Assembly (NCBI RefSeq): GCF_031851795.1
Contig: NZ_CP134696.1
Coordinates: forward strand, 2,713,001-2,777,000
DNA length: 64,000 nucleotides
Origin: Pontibacter sp. G13
GTDB lineage: Bacteria > Bacteroidota > Bacteroidia > J057
Direction of reading: 5' to 3'
Shown: in pieces, positions 2,006 through 50,425 of the stretch
Layout of the letters: every line of letters begins with the position of its first letter
Numbering within the stretch: the first letter of the stretch is position 1
Notes under the pieces: model-generated
Seen by the model: the letters and a program-made list of their open reading frames with translations, nothing else
The model's database searches: none
What the model was told of the DNA's origin: nothing
Translations under genes and position numbers: made by a program

Positions 2006-4366
2006 TTATTTTTCTTGAGCAAAGGGGTGCGAAATCGGCCACCCCTCAAATTGGCTTCCCGTATCGGGATCTTCATCCCAAGGCCAACATGCTAATTCGT
2101 ATGCTTGGGCTTCATGATCCACCCGGATGATTCCATATCCTTCGCTTTTGAGGCTGCGATCTGCGAGGAACATGCCCCATTTGCCATCTCTCCCTTCCAT
2201 GTATTCCTGGTAGGTGAGTTTGGGATTGGCCACTGCCAGGACCCGCATCTTGTTGCCAAATGAGTCGATGAAATGGCCGGTATTGGGATTGCCTCGATAG
2301 GGATTTTCGAGCTTGCCCTCCCCCTCAAACCATCGCTGCCAAAACGCTGCCGCCGCTGGCCCTGCAAAAAATAGGGCTCCATCCTCATAGCCATCCAACC
2401 CTTGGTGCGCCACCATGCCGAGGTGCTGATCGCCAGCCAATACCAACGCTTGAGCTTCCTTGACGAGTTTGACAGCCCGATACCTGCCATCGGCGGGGTA
2501 CCCATTGGCATCAAAATCGATGAGGGGTTCCAAATTGCCCTTGGTCTGCGGCGATCCCCAAATGGAAGCTGTGATGCAGATTTTGGGGAGTCCGGGATGC
2601 ATGTCTTTCCAATCGGCGAGAAACTCCTCTTGGCGCTTCCCGAGCAATTCCCCGGTAGTCGCCAGCAAGTTTGCCTGATAGTCTGGTGGAGACTTGAACT
2701 TGCGGTCCTCCACCAAGGCAAAGCTGACGCCACCATAGACAAAAGCGCCATAGGTAACCGGAATATCGTGCTCGATCGGTGTCGGATCATAGGCATCGGG
2801 ATTGTGGCCATGCTGAATCCGATAGACCATCCGCACCAGATCCTTGTCCCATTTGAACCCGCCATCTTCCTCCTTCTGAGTTCCAGAATCCTTGCCGCCC
2901 TGCCCCCATAGGTTGCCCTGAAGCACATCATGGTCATCTGCCAAGATCACACACGGACGATTCCGGATGGCATCTCGGAAGGTCCAGTACCAGAGATACC
3001 ACCGATACAGGGTATCAAGCTTGGCATCGGACGTATGGCGACCGTATCGAGTGGGATAGGTTTCGTAGTATTGATCCCCACAAAAAACATAGAGATCGGG
3101 ATCGTGCTTGGCCGCATGGGAGACAAGCTCCTTGTGCGGGAAGAAGAGATTGTCCGGCGTAAACCTCCCCAAGACTCGCTCCTGTGTGATCAGCTTGCGA
3201 TAGTGGGGATCGTCTAGGCTTTTGGCGGTGGGAATGATACACGAGAATAGGGCGATATCCATCGACTCGGCCCCGCCATGATCGCGTACGATGGTGCCTT
3301 CAAATAGGCTCTCTCGCTTGCGATTGGGGAATACGATCCGGTATTCATGGTCCCGTTGGAAATCCCAGTCCGGGATTCTAAACAGGCTTACAAATCCATC
3401 CTCGATAGGGGCTATTGGGCCTTTCTTCCACTTATTGGTGCCAAAGACCCGATATTCCAGCCGAGCTTCAGCATGATGTTCTGTAGAGATGGGCAGGAAT
3501 TGCGCAGTCAGTTTGAGGACGGATTGGTTGAGGCTGTACATACATCCCATGACCGGGCCTAGTTGCCTGTCGTCATGGACCCCGATTTTCTGGCCCCCCG
3601 TCGACATCTCAGAAAACCACCATCTGGTTCCGGCCTGTTTTCTAGGCGGTGAGGAGACGAGGGAAATTCCCCCGATCAATTCTTCTGCAGGAACGCCTGT
3701 ACGCACGACGAAGCCGAGCTCATCCCCACTATGGGCATCGGTCGCCACCAATCGCACGTCAAAAGCTCCATCCTCCACCGGATCGATGTGGCAATCCAAC
3801 CAAATGTCTCGCTCGGCAACATCGGAAATGGGCGCAGTCTCTCCTCGGGCGATTGCCTCGAACTTCAGCGTTTCCGACTGATTGGTAAAATCCCGAAAGC
3901 TCAGAGAACCATCCATGTCGAGTACTGCCATGAATCCTCCACCTACTCCAGATGCCCTTTGCACCAAAGCACTCGATTGATAAGGCAGATTGCCTCCGCC
4001 AATTCCAAGGAGGAAGCCGCAAAATCCGGGCTTGTCAGGATCTAGACTACCGACCTTGACGCGGAGGCGCCCCGGAGCATGCTGCTCGGTCAAGCTACGT
4101 GTCAAGACGGAACAGGTACGGATTTCGAAGGACTCACCTCCTTGCAGGCATTCGATTCGCCCTTGGCTCATCCGCCAATCTTGGAGACGATTGGCCCAAA
4201 ATGAACGCCCCAACCAATGGCGGGTTCGATCCTGTGGAAGGGTTTCGAGGGGATAAAGGGGTACTAAATCTGGACGATTGGCTGCCCGAAGCGCCTCCAC
4301 AGAAGGGATCAATGCCGACCCTACTGCCGTGGCTACCCCGAGCTTTACAAAATGTCTTCTTTTCAT
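2006..4366 (-). CDS. PhoD-like metallophosphatase, Tat-exported
   Basis: About 786 residues. The ATG at 4366 gives MKRRHFVKLGVATAVGSALI, a twin-arginine style signal peptide (RRHFVK); an in-frame GTG at 4420 would only add residues in front of it. The body carries PhoD-type metal-site motifs: GDQYYE near residue 430, ADDHDVLQGN near 475 and AGDQHLG near 645. PhoD enzymes are calcium/iron phosphodiesterases or alkaline phosphatases of the periplasm or cell surface that release phosphate from organic esters. The protein is longer than classical PhoD (about 580) because roughly 350 residues of beta-rich sequence precede the catalytic part. Substrate is unknown. It has its own terminator (1972-1993) and appears monocistronic. 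Confidence 0.85.
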   Translation of the reverse strand: MKRRHFVKLGVATAVGSALIPSVEALRAANRPDLVPLYPLETLPQDRTRHWLGRSFWANRLQDWRMSQGRIECLQGGESFEIRTCSVLTRSLTEQHAPGRLRVKVGSLDPDKPGFCGFLLGIGGGNLPYQSSALVQRASGVGGGFMAVLDMDGSLSFRDFTNQSETLKFEAIARGETAPISDVAERDIWLDCHIDPVEDGAFDVRLVATDAHSGDELGFVVRTGVPAEELIGGISLVSSPPRKQAGTRWWFSEMSTGGQKIGVHDDRQLGPVMGCMYSLNQSVLKLTAQFLPISTEHHAEARLEYRVFGTNKWKKGPIAPIEDGFVSLFRIPDWDFQRDHEYRIVFPNRKRESLFEGTIVRDHGGAESMDIALFSCIIPTAKSLDDPHYRKLITQERVLGRFTPDNLFFPHKELVSHAAKHDPDLYVFCGDQYYETYPTRYGRHTSDAKLDTLYRWYLWYWTFRDAIRNRPCVILADDHDVLQGNLWGQGGKDSGTQKEEDGGFKWDKDLVRMVYRIQHGHNPDAYDPTPIEHDIPVTYGAFVYGGVSFALVEDRKFKSPPDYQANLLATTGELLGKRQEEFLADWKDMHPGLPKICITASIWGSPQTKGNLEPLIDFDANGYPADGRYRAVKLVKEAQALVLAGDQHLGMVAHQGLDGYEDGALFFAGPAAAAFWQRWFEGEGKLENPYRGNPNTGHFIDSFGNKMRVLAVANPKLTYQEYMEGRDGKWGMFLADRSLKSEGYGIIRVDHEAQAYELACWPWDEDPDTGSQFEGWPISHPFAQEK

Positions 4367-4586: not shown

Positions 4587-4643
4587 GGATGTGTTTTTAG
4601 CGTGATGGTTTAAGCGCAGTATCTGAAGCAATGCGCCCCAAGT

Positions 4644-5885
4644 TTAGGCCTTCCCTTTGGGTTTGGGCTTGGCTTGTTCGGCAGTTGAGGTTGATGCTAC
4701 AGGATAGGGCTTTTTCATTTTGTAGGTCGCATACCAAAAGAGGAAGATTCCGCCGATAATCATGGCAGAAGAGATGAGTTCCGCTTGGGTGATCTCCAGT
4801 CCGAACAGATTGTAGGTTGAGTTGACTCTGATCTTCTCGATGAGGAATCTTTCGATGCCATTGAGGACGAGATATGCTCCGGTCATTTGGCCCCAGTACT
4901 TGAAACGTTTGCGCATCATCCAGAGGAACGCAAAGATGATCATCGCCATGACCGTCTCATAGAATGGCGTAGGGAAAACAGGCTTGGCGAGTGCATGAAG
5001 CTCCTCCCAATTACAGATGAGATCGGGGTATTGGTTGAAGTCTGGATTGCAGGTTTGATTGACGTTGTTGGGATAGTCGAACGACCACATCCAATCCGGC
5101 AACCAGCTCATCCAATCTGGCTTGGCAGCCTCGTTGATGATCCCCCAGTCACCATCTCCAGCAGTTTGGCAGCCGATTCGTCCAGTACCGTAAGACAGCA
5201 TCATGGCAGGCGCAATGGCATCTGCAAACGGCAAGACTGCATATCCTTTTTTCCGGACATAGTAGGCGATGGCAAATCCTGCACAGATCAACCCGCCATA
5301 GAAAGTGAGGCCGCTGAAGGAAGTCAATTGGCCGATGGGATCAGCCATAAAGTCATCTAGGTACTCGAGATTATGGAAGACTTTCGCGCCCAAGATTCCC
5401 GCGACAAAGGCAATGGTGGTGATGGTGCCGATTTCATTTGGAATGCCCCATTGGATCTTTTCCTTGGTGGGCTTTGAGCCTTTGGATTGGATATGTTGAT
5501 AAAAGCGATAGCCTCCACCAATTGCTCCCAAGATCAGGGCCCACATCCATGAGCCTGTGCCTTTGGTAAATGCATTGCCCAAGGCTACCTGTGGGTTCTC
5601 GGAAAAACTTCCATAATCCTCGAACATCATCCCGATGATGTATCCCATAACTCCGTAAAGCGCAAAATTGAACAACACATCTGTCAAGGGAATTTCTCCC
5701 CCTACAGAAATCTCTCGCTCATGGGTAGGGAAGACGCCAATCTTGGTCATTCGCCTCAACTCCAGCAAAAGGGCCAAGTAGGCCACACCAAATGAGACAG
5801 CGAGAAAAAATCCAAAGGTCTGGATGGGAAGGAGGATGTCCGTGCCGAGGAGATCGTTGATCAGATCACTGATTCGGGGATACAT
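4644..5885 (-). CDS. lgt: Prolipoprotein diacylglyceryl transferase
   Basis: A 413-residue multi-spanning inner-membrane enzyme. Lgt moves a diacylglyceryl group from phosphatidylglycerol to the lipobox cysteine of prolipoproteins, the first step of lipoprotein maturation. The signature [16 protein letters not shown] lies near residue 232, and [11 protein letters not shown], the conserved periplasmic-side helix, near 190. Family members are usually 260-300 residues. This one has an inserted loop (about 245-300, rich in Trp, Asp and Asn) and an Ala/Lys/Pro tail ([14 protein letters not shown]); longer Lgt forms are common in Bacteroidota. The window encodes several likely Lgt substrates (at 16750, 32040, 33804, 46285 and 62733). 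The start is ATG and a terminator follows. Confidence 0.93.
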
Positions 5886-9000: not shown

Positions 9001-10864
9001 TTCTAGAAGTAGTCGGAGAAGCGATAGGGTTGGGGATATTCGGATCACTCAATCCCAGTACTGGGGACCAACTGAAGGTCGCAAAATCAAGCCCAGAACC
9101 AGAGGGCACCAATTGAACAGAATCGCCTTGGCAGATTTCTTCCGTTACAAATGGATTCAGTACGGGAGTGGTATCGACAATGACAAAGACCGAGCTCTCA
9201 TAATCACAGGACAATGTGGAGATATTGATCTGATAAGTCTGATTGCTGGTCGGCCATACCGTAGGATTCAGGGTAAACTGTCCATTGATGTTGATGGGAG
9301 GTGCCCATGAAACAGGATCAGTTGCTGACCCAGAATATGTGATCGAACTCAACGTGATAGAGTCCCCCACACAGATTCTCACGGTATCATCCGGAATCAA
9401 CAATTCCGCATCCGGCTGAAGGACGAATGATTCATACACATTACAGCCAATTCCATCATTGTAGATCGTACTGATGCTGATTGGCCCGTCTGGGGGAATG
9501 ATCTGTGCAGATGGTCCTGTAGATGGATTCACCAACATTGAGTCTGGCGCCCATGTGTAAGTCCCCGTTCCTGTCGTCTGCGCGGTCAGGGTAACCGGGG
9601 TTGTATCGGAAGGACAGTAATTGACAAACTGAGGAGGAAGGATCACACCGGGATTGACATAGATCGTAAAGCCAATGTTTGCTGACCCAATAATCGGGCA
9701 ACCATCATCTTCCAATGCGATATTCACATAATAAATACCTGTATCTGCCAAGGTGGTAGGCCAAGAGAAGGAACCAATCAGGCTATTGCCTGGACCATTG
9801 TTGATATTATAGGTGACCCCAGTGATATTTCCGGCATCTCCTGTCATGGTAAGGTTGTCGTTCGGGTTGAGCACATCCTCACCATCAATATCGAAACTCA
9901 GCGTATTGCCAGCACACACAGAGAATACATTTCCGTTGAGTTGGCCTCCAGAAATATTGTAGGGTGCACTCAAGCTAGGCGGATCGTTCAAACATTCAAT
10001 TACGACCATCTGAAGATCCCGCATGGTGGTACCAATCAGTTGTCCATTTCGGTATTCTTTCACCAAGATAGACACGATTCCCTGCTGAATGGCATCGGGG
10101 GTAAAGGCTATCTGCCCAGTCACTGGATCGAAGTTAAATGCTCCGGGAGGAGAGGTAGACATCGGATAACCGACGCTAAATCCACCCATATAGGGGATAT
10201 TGAATGCGGCTCCATTCCCAAAGTCCAAGGGATTGACCAATTCGAAGACTAGGCTGTCTCCATCTGGATCGACTGCTCCATTATTGAAAATAAATGGATT
10301 GTCCTTACAGATATAAGGAACTGGAGGCACTGTAAAGTAAGGGGAATTGTTACAGACAACATCCAAGTTATTCAGATTCCCCTCGATATACATCCGGGTT
10401 TGAGTCGAAATCACCGAGTTGGTGATAGCATAATTCCGGCAACACAGCCTCCAATGGAGATTCCAATCCGGGCATTGCTGCGGGAAGGTGTAGGTCAGCT
10501 CGTAGACATGCTGCTGAACCCCGGGCAAGATTCCATTAGGTCGACATGTACTCAATGGCTGCTGAGCCGGACACAAAGGGGATAGTTCCAAGACACTTGT
10601 TCGATTGGCCACCTGTACCGAACTGGCAACCCCACAAGAATCCGATTTGATATGGATGTTTTGCGTGCTTTGAAGCTCGGCCCCTTCACAGTCTCGGTAT
10701 ACTACCAATCGGATCAAATAGGTATTGCCCCCCAAACACTCCCAAGACAAGTCAGCTCCCATGTTATGGGTAGCATGCGCCTCTTGACTGGGTGCGAGAA
10801 GCAAGAATAATAGACACCCGGCAATCGACAAGATCGACCGGAAAGCGTGTTTCACACAGAGCAT
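6050..10864 (-). CDS. Giant SprB-repeat protein with T9SS type B sorting domain
   Basis: 1604 residues. A signal peptide (LLFLLLAPSQEAHA) is followed by the domain HNMGADLSWECLGGNTYLI that often opens such proteins. Ig-like/PKD-type modules follow to about residue 640. Then come about ten tandem SprB repeats (about 655-1400), each opening with a variant of DVSCNGSSDGSI and containing GGTPPY and PPGTYTV-like turns. A PKD domain (YGWDFGDGQ) lies near 1465. The C-terminal gliding-motility-associated domain (about 1518-1604, YVPNAFTPN... WDRWG) is the T9SS type B signal, so the protein is likely exported and held at the cell surface. SprB-type adhesins in flavobacteria carry gliding or surface attachment; whether this one does is inference. 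The third repeat (STNCVLNLGFIQI) has lost part of the motif. Confidence 0.9.
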   Translation of the reverse strand: MLCVKHAFRSILSIAGCLLFLLLAPSQEAHATHNMGADLSWECLGGNTYLIRLVVYRDCEGAELQSTQNIHIKSDSCGVASSVQVANRTSVLELSPLCPAQQPLSTCRPNGILPGVQQHVYELTYTFPQQCPDWNLHWRLCCRNYAITNSVISTQTRMYIEGNLNNLDVVCNNSPYFTVPPVPYICKDNPFIFNNGAVDPDGDSLVFELVNPLDFGNGAAFNIPYMGGFSVGYPMSTSPPGAFNFDPVTGQIAFTPDAIQQGIVSILVKEYRNGQLIGTTMRDLQMVVIECLNDPPSLSAPYNISGGQLNGNVFSVCAGNTLSFDIDGEDVLNPNDNLTMTGDAGNITGVTYNINNGPGNSLIGSFSWPTTLADTGIYYVNIALEDDGCPIIGSANIGFTIYVNPGVILPPQFVNYCPSDTTPVTLTAQTTGTGTYTWAPDSMLVNPSTGPSAQIIPPDGPISISTIYNDGIGCNVYESFVLQPDAELLIPDDTVRICVGDSITLSSITYSGSATDPVSWAPPININGQFTLNPTVWPTSNQTYQINISTLSCDYESSVFVIVDTTPVLNPFVTEEICQGDSVQLVPSGSGLDFATFSWSPVLGLSDPNIPNPIASPTTSRTYTLTVSNSCGSAAEDVDVVVYAPLSLSLNAEDVSCNGSSDGSIQAVPFGGSGNAAYVWLPPVGTPGSATVNNLPPGSYTVVGIDDAGCEATATVTVNEPPVLVVSIDSAIDVGCYGEATGELEVSATGGTPGYSFALNGSSTFLNVTSFVNLPQGPYTVTVMDSKGCTATSAPVNINQPTIPLEVVIDSVQSTNCVLNLGFIQISGNGGAIPYEFSADGGTTWSLNGAFGGLPPGLYTMMVRDYNGCMASAEVEIKEANDPFLVIDSTRDASCYGVCDGFLSFSPAGGTPPYLYLLDANALSDTFVNNLCPGYHEIAVADFFDCGYSLSFVIEEPDSLYTQAGALSDVSCNGGLDGSILALAFGGTEPYEYDISPGLGGFTNNNQFEDLVAGTYTVTVQDSNECEADFVVDILEPAPLLATPLNKLDISCFGEQDGSVEMNATGGTKPYKYSLNGSPFVLNNVFTGLAAGTYTFDVQDANGCLASANVTIIEPAPLAVTVTDINDVTCFGIANGSVTVAGSGGTPAYEFAFEAQPFGSSPILTGMAAGTYVIVIRDGNGCMAETAATLNEPDALIGSGTSQDISCYGENDGSAEVDVVGGTPAYQYLWNTGETNSTVNNLPPGNYDCIITDANNCQYSISVEVIEPPLMEFDSISYVDASCYDFADGEAFARAVGGTPSLTYVWTDSVGTDSIASGMAAGTYTVTVTDSLGCSISQDFEIGQPTPIVPELVDSDPAFCGLANGSVTIDVTGGFPEYEIFWNTTPPQTGPVAVDLFGGPDDGVYTALIVDSVGCETTFTYQVELSSQPIADFTTDFIGNGDTLILDQAGINFLNRSQFAFSYGWDFGDGQTSTDLNPIHVYHQTGTYTVELVAYDLGRACPDTAEYTFTLIPPGAIYVPNAFTPNYDEFNGYFHPIGVGVVEVEMNIWDRWGGHIITLNSMADRWDGTKNGEPCQEGVYVFVVNAVLNDGTTFYKAGTVTLIR

Positions 10865-49888: not shown

Positions 49889-50143
49889 AAAAAAAACCCC
49901 GGAAAATTAAATGACCGGGGATCGATTAAAAAGGACTACTACTACTCGCGAGCTGCAGGAGAAGGAGTCGAACCTTCATGAGGTGGTTAGGCTCCCCCAC
50001 AAAATGCGGGGGAGCTTTATCCCAAACCCTCGCCCCCGAGACCAGAGGGTACGGCTACCCATTTCGTCATCCTGCAGTATATGAGGTATTGGATAAAATA
50101 TCCAGTGTATGTTTTATGTCAGAAGAACTTTTTCCCTTTCGGT
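49889..50143 (-). ncRNA. tRNA-like RNA 1 with a very long variable arm
   Basis: Minus strand, about 255 nt from promoter to terminator. A perfect 8-bp stem closes the core (CTGCAGGA, 50070-50077, with TCCTGCAG, 49953-49960). A D-arm-like part (ACG-AAATGGGTAGC-CGT) and a perfect T-arm (GAAGG-TTCGACT-CCTTC, 49961-49977) are present as in class II tRNAs. The region where the anticodon arm should be (CCCTC...GGGGG or GAGGG) gives a loop without U33. The variable region is about 55 nt and folds into a long hairpin with an 8-bp GC stem (GCTCCCCC / GGGGGAGC). The core is 125 nt, too long for a tRNA. After the closing stem come CTCGCGAGTAGTAGTAGTCC and a terminator. Function is unknown. Confidence 0.6.
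49897..49920 (-). terminator. Terminator of tRNA-like RNA 1
   Basis: CCCCGG / CCGGGG inverted repeat followed on the minus strand by eight T residues. Confidence 0.85.
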
Positions 50144-50149
50144 ATGATA

Positions 50150-50181
50150 CAAATGTAGAGTACGGGATTTAGAATTGCAAA
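50150..50181 (-). promoter_or_regulatory. Promoter of tRNA-like RNA 1
   Basis: Minus strand TTTG-N20-TACATTTG, with the -7 element at 50150-50157. It matches the Bacteroidota consensus. Confidence 0.7.
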
Positions 50182-50256
50182 TGTTTTAAGAAAAAAAGTC
50201 AAAAAATATCAAATTATCAGCGAGGGAGGCAAACGGCTGATAGATTTCACACAAAC

Positions 50257-50386
50257 AAAAAAATCCCCAGTGTGCACACCGGGGACCAACAAAAAAGGAC
50301 TACTACTACTACTCGCTTGGACAGGTCAGAGGACTTGAACCTCAGTGGGACGGCCTATGTTCCGAAACCCGTTTTGCCTTGATTGA
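50257..50386 (-). ncRNA. tRNA-like RNA 2 (short relative of RNA 1)
   Basis: Minus strand, about 130 nt. It shares with RNA 1 a T-arm (GAGG-TTCAAGT-CCTC, 50329-50343), the tail GCGAGTAGTAGTAGTAGTCC (50297-50316), a T-run and a terminator. The 5' half does not pair with TGACCTG after the T-arm except in a few positions, so no acceptor stem forms. Instead ACGG / CCGT and a GTT-TCGG-AAC hairpin can form. It is either a reduced relative of RNA 1 or a tRNA remnant turned into another RNA. Confidence 0.55.
50264..50285 (-). terminator. Terminator of tRNA-like RNA 2
   Basis: Minus strand CCCC-GGTGTGCACACT-GGGG followed by ATTTTTTTG. Confidence 0.8.
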
Positions 50387-50392
50387 ACATTA

Positions 50393-50425
50393 CAAATATA
50401 GAACTCTCCAGATAACATTTGCAAA
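50393..50425 (-). promoter_or_regulatory. Promoter of tRNA-like RNA 2
   Basis: Minus strand TTTG-N21-TATATTTG, with the -7 element at 50393-50400. The upstream part (TTTGCAA) is the same as in the promoter of RNA 1. Confidence 0.7.

Follow-up and report, generated by a model that had tools for sequence, protein, structure and literature searches.

Roles outside decoding are played by the cell-wall tRNA-Gly of staphylococci and by the pseudo-tRNA of Bacillus cereus. In Deinococcus, Thermus and Bdellovibrio asparagine is synthesized on tRNA-Asn (available part of PMC4206432), and the same text lists the Bacteroidetes among the genera that lack an Asn synthetase while possessing AsnRS, GlnRS and GatCAB. 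According to the available sections of PMC9976931, G73, G34, U35, C36 and C38 are the strong determinants of Asp identity, the pairs G1-C72 and G2-C71 are strictly conserved in bacterial tRNA-Asp, with G10 also appearing in the table, and it is U1-A72 that makes Asp-tRNA-Asn a substrate for amidation, while G1-C72 and U20a prevent amidation in tRNA-Asp.

The 64-kb stretch of Pontibacter sp. G13 DNA analysed here (the window) contains RNA 1, a member of a conserved tRNA-like RNA family that is almost certainly real and that we did not find described earlier, no such RNA being recognised in the literature searched (without bioRxiv and with few subscription papers). Judging by its conserved bases, the RNA is likely to be charged with aspartate. 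Conversion of this aspartate into asparagine by GatCAB is its probable function, and we are inclined to see the RNA as a carrier that takes no part in decoding and on which asparagine would be made by AspRS and GatCAB. The broader proposal of a dedicated class of carrier RNAs for amino-acid synthesis, with an added domain of its own, served by ordinary AspRS and GatCAB, replacing asnA under AsnC-type control and present in viruses in the role of an auxiliary metabolic RNA, could hold or fail with about equal chance.

A preliminary description had placed two adjacent tRNA-like genes, RNA 1 and RNA 2, on the minus strand, and on re-reading the window the strand, the sequence and the tails shared by both are as it gave them (Table 1). 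The class-II-like D-arm, the 7-nt anticodon-like loop without U33, the long variable hairpin and the T-arm that it ascribed to RNA 1 are likewise present. In a covariance-model search of the genome, model R1 scores RNA 1 at 108.9 bits (C1:2762953-2763077), and the fold beats 200 of 200 shuffles (z −4.15). The coordinates of the D-arm were counted off alignment A2, in which RNA 1 is row 1. Both proposed promoters match the TTTG-N-TAnnTTTG pattern, which occurs six times in the 64 kb on both strands, two of these occurrences being the promoters of RNA 1 and RNA 2; the TAnnTTTG motif also lies upstream of 19 of 27 hand-picked family loci. Strong terminators had been claimed for both RNAs. The terminator scan returned that of RNA 2 as its single find, against 1.1 expected in shuffles, and did not list the hairpin past RNA 1, whose loop is too long for the scan and which is visible in the sequence only.

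Table 1. Features of the RNA 1 and RNA 2 region (positions in the window) and of the array elsewhere in the genome (positions on C1).
Feature	Coordinates	Strand	Basis
RNA 1, tRNA-like, position 1 (50076) to discriminator G73 (49953)	49953..50076	minus	family model R1 and fold
C74 directly after G73 of RNA 1	49952	minus	C there in 46/46 unique members and 26 listed own tRNA rows
D-arm of RNA 1, class II tRNA type: 3-bp stem, GGUAG loop	50051..50067	minus	covarying pairs 11-13 with 27-29 of alignment A2
Anticodon-like loop UGGUCUC of RNA 1 (G33, G34-U35-C36, U37, C38)	50038..50044	minus	alignment; family loop counts
Variable-arm domain of RNA 1: outer stem GAGG/CCUC, GAUAAA ... CUAAC internal loop, apical hairpin	49980..50031	minus	fold and family covariation
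T-arm of RNA 1, GAAGG-UUCGACU-CCUUC	49961..49977	minus	sequence, alignment, covariation
Bacteroidota-type promoter of RNA 1, TTTG-N20-TACATTTG	50150..50181	minus	pattern match
Trailer GAGTAGTAGTAGTCC past RNA 1, local	49933..49947	minus	pattern search; missing from array copies
Terminator-like hairpin (CCCCGG ... CCGGGG) and T run past RNA 1	49889..49920 (about)	minus	seen in sequence
RNA 2 candidate, including promoter (50393-50425), T-arm-like hairpin (about 50329-50343) and trailer	50288..50425	minus	sequence, pattern match
Terminator of RNA 2	50262..50287	minus	terminator scan
Three-copy head-to-tail array, 130-bp units (TRF: 98% matches)	C1:5110192-5110562		DNA search of genome

RNA 2, which had been taken for a second unit of the same layout, finds no support as a family member from alignment, fold or copy search. 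Of 1000 shuffles, 113 align to RNA 1 at least as well as its core does, its fold is no better than that of shuffles (z 0.00 and +1.26), and no further copy was found in the genome, the next best match being the tail (E 0.016); it does have a T-arm-like hairpin and the tail. Between 50246 and 50430 (minus) RNA 2 shares the promoter type, tail and terminator of RNA 1, but not a supported core; it could have arisen by decay of a duplicate, or be a small RNA with no relation to RNA 1. The tail, previously regarded as a hallmark of the unit, had to be given up as a family mark and is better read as a local trailer, since the array copies lack it and it occurs at a third place where no tRNA-like RNA was seen. 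Allowing up to two mismatches, GAGTAGTAGTAGTCC has three matches at the RNA 1 and RNA 2 places against 0.03 expected. The AGTAGTAGTAGTCC tail also precedes a terminator at C1:292485-292499 (L019:3486-3500, minus), the third place, where a tRNA-like RNA was found neither by eye nor by ARAGORN or Rfam. This place lies downstream of an ORF that resembles, by eye, an enolase-superfamily enzyme.

Four copies of the family are present in the genome, namely RNA 1 and the three units of the tandem array, which has a promoter match of its own and lies ∼180 bp from a divergent AsnC-type regulator gene. Similarity to the DNA of the array unit was detected in 15 of 60 genomes, the own genome included. Alignment A2 comprises 19 members, and the covariance model R1 was used for the later searches. 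Over 295 genomes of the class, R1 gave matches of at least 75 bits, 108-176 nt long, in 49 genomes; among the matches listed, those below 75 bits reached at most 62.6 bits and, one exception aside, had ordinary class II tRNA lengths, their identity as class II tRNAs being judged by length and a few inspected sequences. The exception, a 145-nt piece in genome G243 at 58.9 bits, proved on a regional re-search to be a full 196-nt member of 92.8 bits. As long members can be missed, the 50 carriers among the 295 sampled genomes are a lower bound. In a draw across the phylum, 13 of 148 genomes had a strong match, all of them the own genome or others of the same class. A pattern scan of named genomes returned at least 120 stretches, and the titles among the 80 matches listed include Chitinophaga, Dyadobacter, Cyclobacterium, Algoriphagus, Niabella, Neolewinella and Fulvivirga (Bacteroidota). 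As far as sequence can tell, the family is common to many Bacteroidota and to viral contigs.

Rfam and ARAGORN do not recognise these molecules. Neither Rfam at gathering thresholds nor ARAGORN returned anything in the window, RNA 1 included; the Rfam tRNA model RF00005 stayed below its gathering threshold at the family places tested, ARAGORN called no tRNA on family places in the window, the own copies, 34 viral contigs and 10 loci, neither program gave a tmRNA match on members, and no Rfam 15 model reached its gathering score on the members tested. Sub-threshold Rfam matches near the locus (NsiR1, anti-hemB, tRNA-Sec and others) were rejected, all lying below gathering scores; those to NsiR1 and anti-hemB fall on the terminators. 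Three queries against named phage and plasmid records gave no match.

The family structure was drawn by hand on A2 as a cloverleaf in which 99.8% of 475 cells are standard pairs, a percentage that leans towards the structure, as it was drawn from the same sequences. Covariation was counted as well: 11 of 25 pairs changed on both sides against a shuffled mean of 3.3, with 0 of 500 shuffles as high, although this count includes an outer acceptor pair later rejected. Sliding the pairing partners destroys the cloverleaf signal, and the number of further pair types (17) was not above that of shuffles (16.4). Covariation thus keeps a 7/5 acceptor branch and the D-, anticodon and T-stems. Base identities were counted in 46 unique members, a set gathered with the model or through DNA similarity rather than with an anticodon pattern. 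The 8-bp acceptor stem formerly read in RNA 1 shrinks to 7 bp, for the base 5' of position 1 is C in 33, U in 9 and A in 4 of these relatives and unpaired with the invariant G opposite, which is therefore the discriminator G73. A tRNA-Sec or allo-tRNA identity, with an 8- or 9-bp stem, was rejected together with that outer pair. Within the acceptor, U1-A72 and G2-C71 occur in all 46 members and U3-A70 in 44; pairs 3 to 7 covary. G73 is followed by C74 in 46 of 46. This C74 is the ordinary tRNA 3' end for the organism, since C74 is likewise present, in most cases with no CA after it, in the 26 listed rows of its own tRNAs.

The variable region, 35-103 nt in the 46 members and 36-128 nt in the pattern-selected set, forms a domain built from an outer stem of 4 bp, an inner stem of 3 bp, an asymmetric loop GAUAAA/CUAAC and a further stem, to which long forms add a GG-RUNGA-CC hairpin followed by AC. 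Among the unique variable regions folded (95 long and 67 short), the outer stem of the short set falls outside the predicted consensus and some pairs are present in only 52 of 67. By eye, the apical part often holds a short palindrome (UUGUGCACAA, GCUUGCAAGC, GCUAGCUAGC, CGAGCUCG), as in the viral contigs L203, L205, L231 and L235 and in Cyclobacterium loci such as L094; a mini-hairpin or a kissing dimer might result from it. The D-arm is like that of the genome's own tRNA-Leu, so that the family may have its origin in tRNA-Leu.

The bases that would matter to AspRS are nearly invariant. G34 is found in 45, U35 in 46, C36 in 46, C38 in 45 and G73 in 46 of the 46 members. Positions that matter to decoding and are absent from the AspRS and GatCAB sets have drifted: position 33 is U in 32, G in 12 and C in 2, so that the U33 of decoding tRNAs is not kept, and neither is a purine at position 37 (U 41, G 3, C 2, A 0). 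The D-loop reads GGCAG in 46 of 46 (GGUAG in RNA 1), with A where the own tRNA-Asp has U20a in our numbering. Hence the base combination expected of a GatCAB substrate, U1-A72 without G1-C72 or U20a, occurs in 46 of 46; in the same genome tRNA-Asp carries G1-C72 and U20a, and tRNA-Asn carries U1-A72. U1-A72, invariant here, is the pair that lets GatCAB select Asp-tRNAs for amidation. Against the carrier reading stand the absence of G1-C72, said to matter for AspRS, and the rarity of G10, a bacterial Asp determinant (position 10 is A in 27, U in 11 and G in 8), and the big variable arm may hinder AspRS.

Gene content points in the same direction, with exceptions. gatB (TIGR00133) scored over the cut-off in 214 of 291 genomes. 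Every one of the 50 carriers is among them, compared with 164 of the 241 other genomes (Fisher P 6.5e-8, a value that ignores phylogeny). In genome families f1, f42 and f47 it was present in 14 of 14 carriers and 0 of 6 non-carriers, with exact chances of 1/5 x 1/15 x 1/84 by our own arithmetic, these families having been chosen after seeing the data. The 164 gatB-positive genomes without detected RNA, spread over many other families, count against the carrier reading, as do families f9 and f22, where RNA and gatB vary without a strict match, and genomes G016 and G205, which have gatB and neither asnA, asnB over the cut-off nor a detected RNA. AsnRS (TIGR00457) was over the cut-off in 275 of 291. 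Asparagine synthetases were searched in 80 picked genomes, the 50 carriers and 30 non-carriers, the latter chosen by hand and including losses already seen. asnA (TIGR00669) occurred in five of them, the non-carriers G008, G060, G269 and G077 and a single carrier, G203, whose RNA (L068:1501-1616, minus) has the loop CUCUCUC, the only G34 change among the 46, and may be losing its role. The association of asnA with the RNA has a Fisher P of 0.06, or 0.007 when G203 is treated, by post hoc choice, as lacking an intact RNA. asnB-type genes (TIGR01536), over the cut-off in 72 of 80, are uninformative as a discriminator, and on their account many carriers may have another route to asparagine; below the cut-off were the carriers G002, G176, G255 and G301 and the non-carriers G008, G016, G095 and G205, with G095 having none of gatB, asnA, strong asnB and RNA.

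AsnC activates asnA, and asparagine abolishes this activation (PMC4482635, in the part available). The E. coli K-12 genes asnC and asnA run in opposite directions from a 151-bp gap, and many family RNAs stand to an AsnC-type gene as asnA does to asnC. Such a gene was found in 54 of 82 family loci. Of the 65 loci whose upstream sequence extends for 1.5 kb or more, 43 have it in divergent orientation no farther than 1 kb away, the gap to the RNA being 132-190 bp in 37 of 44 distances. We use the label 'AsnC-type' because AsnC was the best NCBIfam model for five of five proteins, ahead by 82-95 bits, with scores (149.8-169.2 bits) that do not reach the curated NF008384 cut-off of 227 bits; the best PDB match was the E. 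coli-type AsnC 2cg4. The remaining 22 of the 65 loci have no adjacent AsnC-type gene and the whole 64-kb window around RNA 1 yielded no such protein match, observations that speak against the carrier reading. In the stretches fetched from the five asnA-positive genomes, asnA was not found beside an AsnC gene.

The family pattern also occurs in 34 viral contigs, every one of which R1 matches, with scores of 70.8-105.1 bits; one copy is cut by the contig end, and some of these contigs carry identical RNA copies. RNA kinship suggests that the hosts of these viruses are Bacteroidota. A second irregular set of tRNA-Leu-like molecules was seen in viral contigs (L210:4343-4505, 4588-4707 and 9980-10113, minus; L232:2999-3088 and 3169-3298, plus; L234:5950-6099, plus), sharing exactly or nearly the acceptor TAGTCAGG ... 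CCTGACTA with a C behind it; in several of them the variable region is long or odd.

Under the carrier reading, the transcript would be trimmed and given CCA as in a tRNA, after which AspRS would load Asp by means of G34-U35-C36, C38 and G73, with help from G2-C71. GatCAB should then accept the Asp-RNA and convert it to Asn-RNA, given U1-A72 and the lack of U20a, unlike tRNA-Asp. The relaxed positions 33 and 37 and the large variable-arm domain would exclude decoding and keep Asn-RNA off Asp codons. The RNA would take the functional place of asnA under an asparagine-responsive regulator of AsnC type, and the viral copies might act as auxiliary metabolic RNA, with which viruses would keep asparagine flowing.

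An aspartylated RNA without amidation is unlikely, though not unreasonable. Such an RNA could supply Asp for some reaction off the ribosome, or the extent of its charging could report the Asp supply and so serve regulation; it would explain why AspRS determinants are fixed while decoding positions drift, and the structured extra domain could bind a partner, but it leaves the invariant U1-A72, the missing U20a and gatB in 50 of 50 carriers unexplained. The preliminary description had thought of a tRNA-mimic regulator or an RNase P/Z substrate, ideas that we favour less, as the conserved bases, and the gene content with them, speak for aspartylation and amidation. A regulatory mimic without product, for instance one that titrates AspRS, GatCAB or a nuclease, or a viral decoy against anticodon nucleases, would suit the carriage by viral contigs, the own promoter and the added domain; it seems improbable, having no need for C74, G73 and U1-A72 to be fixed all at once and predicting no asnA pattern.

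The RNA could also be a working, if odd, tRNA-Asp isoacceptor, kept by viruses like their other tRNAs. In the stretches examined, 10 of the 34 viral contigs have ARAGORN tRNA genes near the RNA, six of these ten also holding a tmRNA (in L231 it is separate from the family RNA), and the GUC anticodon, C74 and T-arm would serve such a role. In L234 the tRNA genes lie ∼4 kb from the RNA, among them an ARAGORN tRNA-SeC (TCA) at L234:5575-5661 (plus), and in other contigs the RNA sits between genes that look, by eye, like phage genes. Against an isoacceptor, a normal tRNA-Asp(GUC) exists in the own genome and in viral contig L235, position 33 is G or C in 14 of 46 members and position 37 is never A, and U1-A72 would make the molecule a GatCAB substrate and bring Asn to Asp codons, all of which renders it decidedly improbable. 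Decayed tRNA genes or a chance resemblance, to which the misses by ARAGORN and Rfam lend some colour and of which RNA 2 may be a remnant, are next to negligible given the covariation, invariant bases, promoters and wide distribution; for RNA 1 the covariation and the R1 search refute them, and with four genome copies and relatives across the class and in viral contigs the earlier view of a lineage-specific family has been borne out.

If the carrier reading is true, tRNA-like molecules would acquire one more role, that of a metabolic carrier with an amino acid as product; a bacterium with strict AspRS and AsnRS could make Asn on an RNA without the risk of Asp/Asn miscoding, and viruses would carry a metabolic gene in the form of RNA. 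The carrier reading also offers an explanation for why Bacteroidota keep GatCAB beside AsnRS.

Among known systems, tRNA-dependent synthesis on tRNA-Asn shares with the family the predicted use of AspRS and GatCAB, the U1-A72 signal and the making of Asn on an RNA; that route, as presented in the available part of PMC4206432, relies on a decoding tRNA-Asn and a non-discriminating AspRS, whereas a separate RNA with an Asp anticodon and an added domain would serve here. Bacterial tRNA-Asp is matched in the GUC anticodon, C38, G73 and G2-C71, and differs in having G1-C72 rather than U1-A72 and U rather than A at 20a; the long structured variable arm and the relaxed 33 and 37 set the family further apart. 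The D-arm and core resemble the own tRNA-Leu, and class II tRNAs are the next best R1 matches, but the family has G73 instead of A73, another anticodon loop and its 35-103 nt variable region. Allo-tRNAs and selC* tRNA-Cys are likewise irregular with a long variable arm, and GUC is among the common anticodons of the 8/4 type; in the available text of PMC7609411 they have 8/4 or 9/3 branches or an 8-bp acceptor and belong to other phyla, in contrast to the 7/5 branch found here. From the staphylococcal tRNA-Gly and the Bacillus cereus pseudo-tRNA the family differs in amino acid, pathway and structure.
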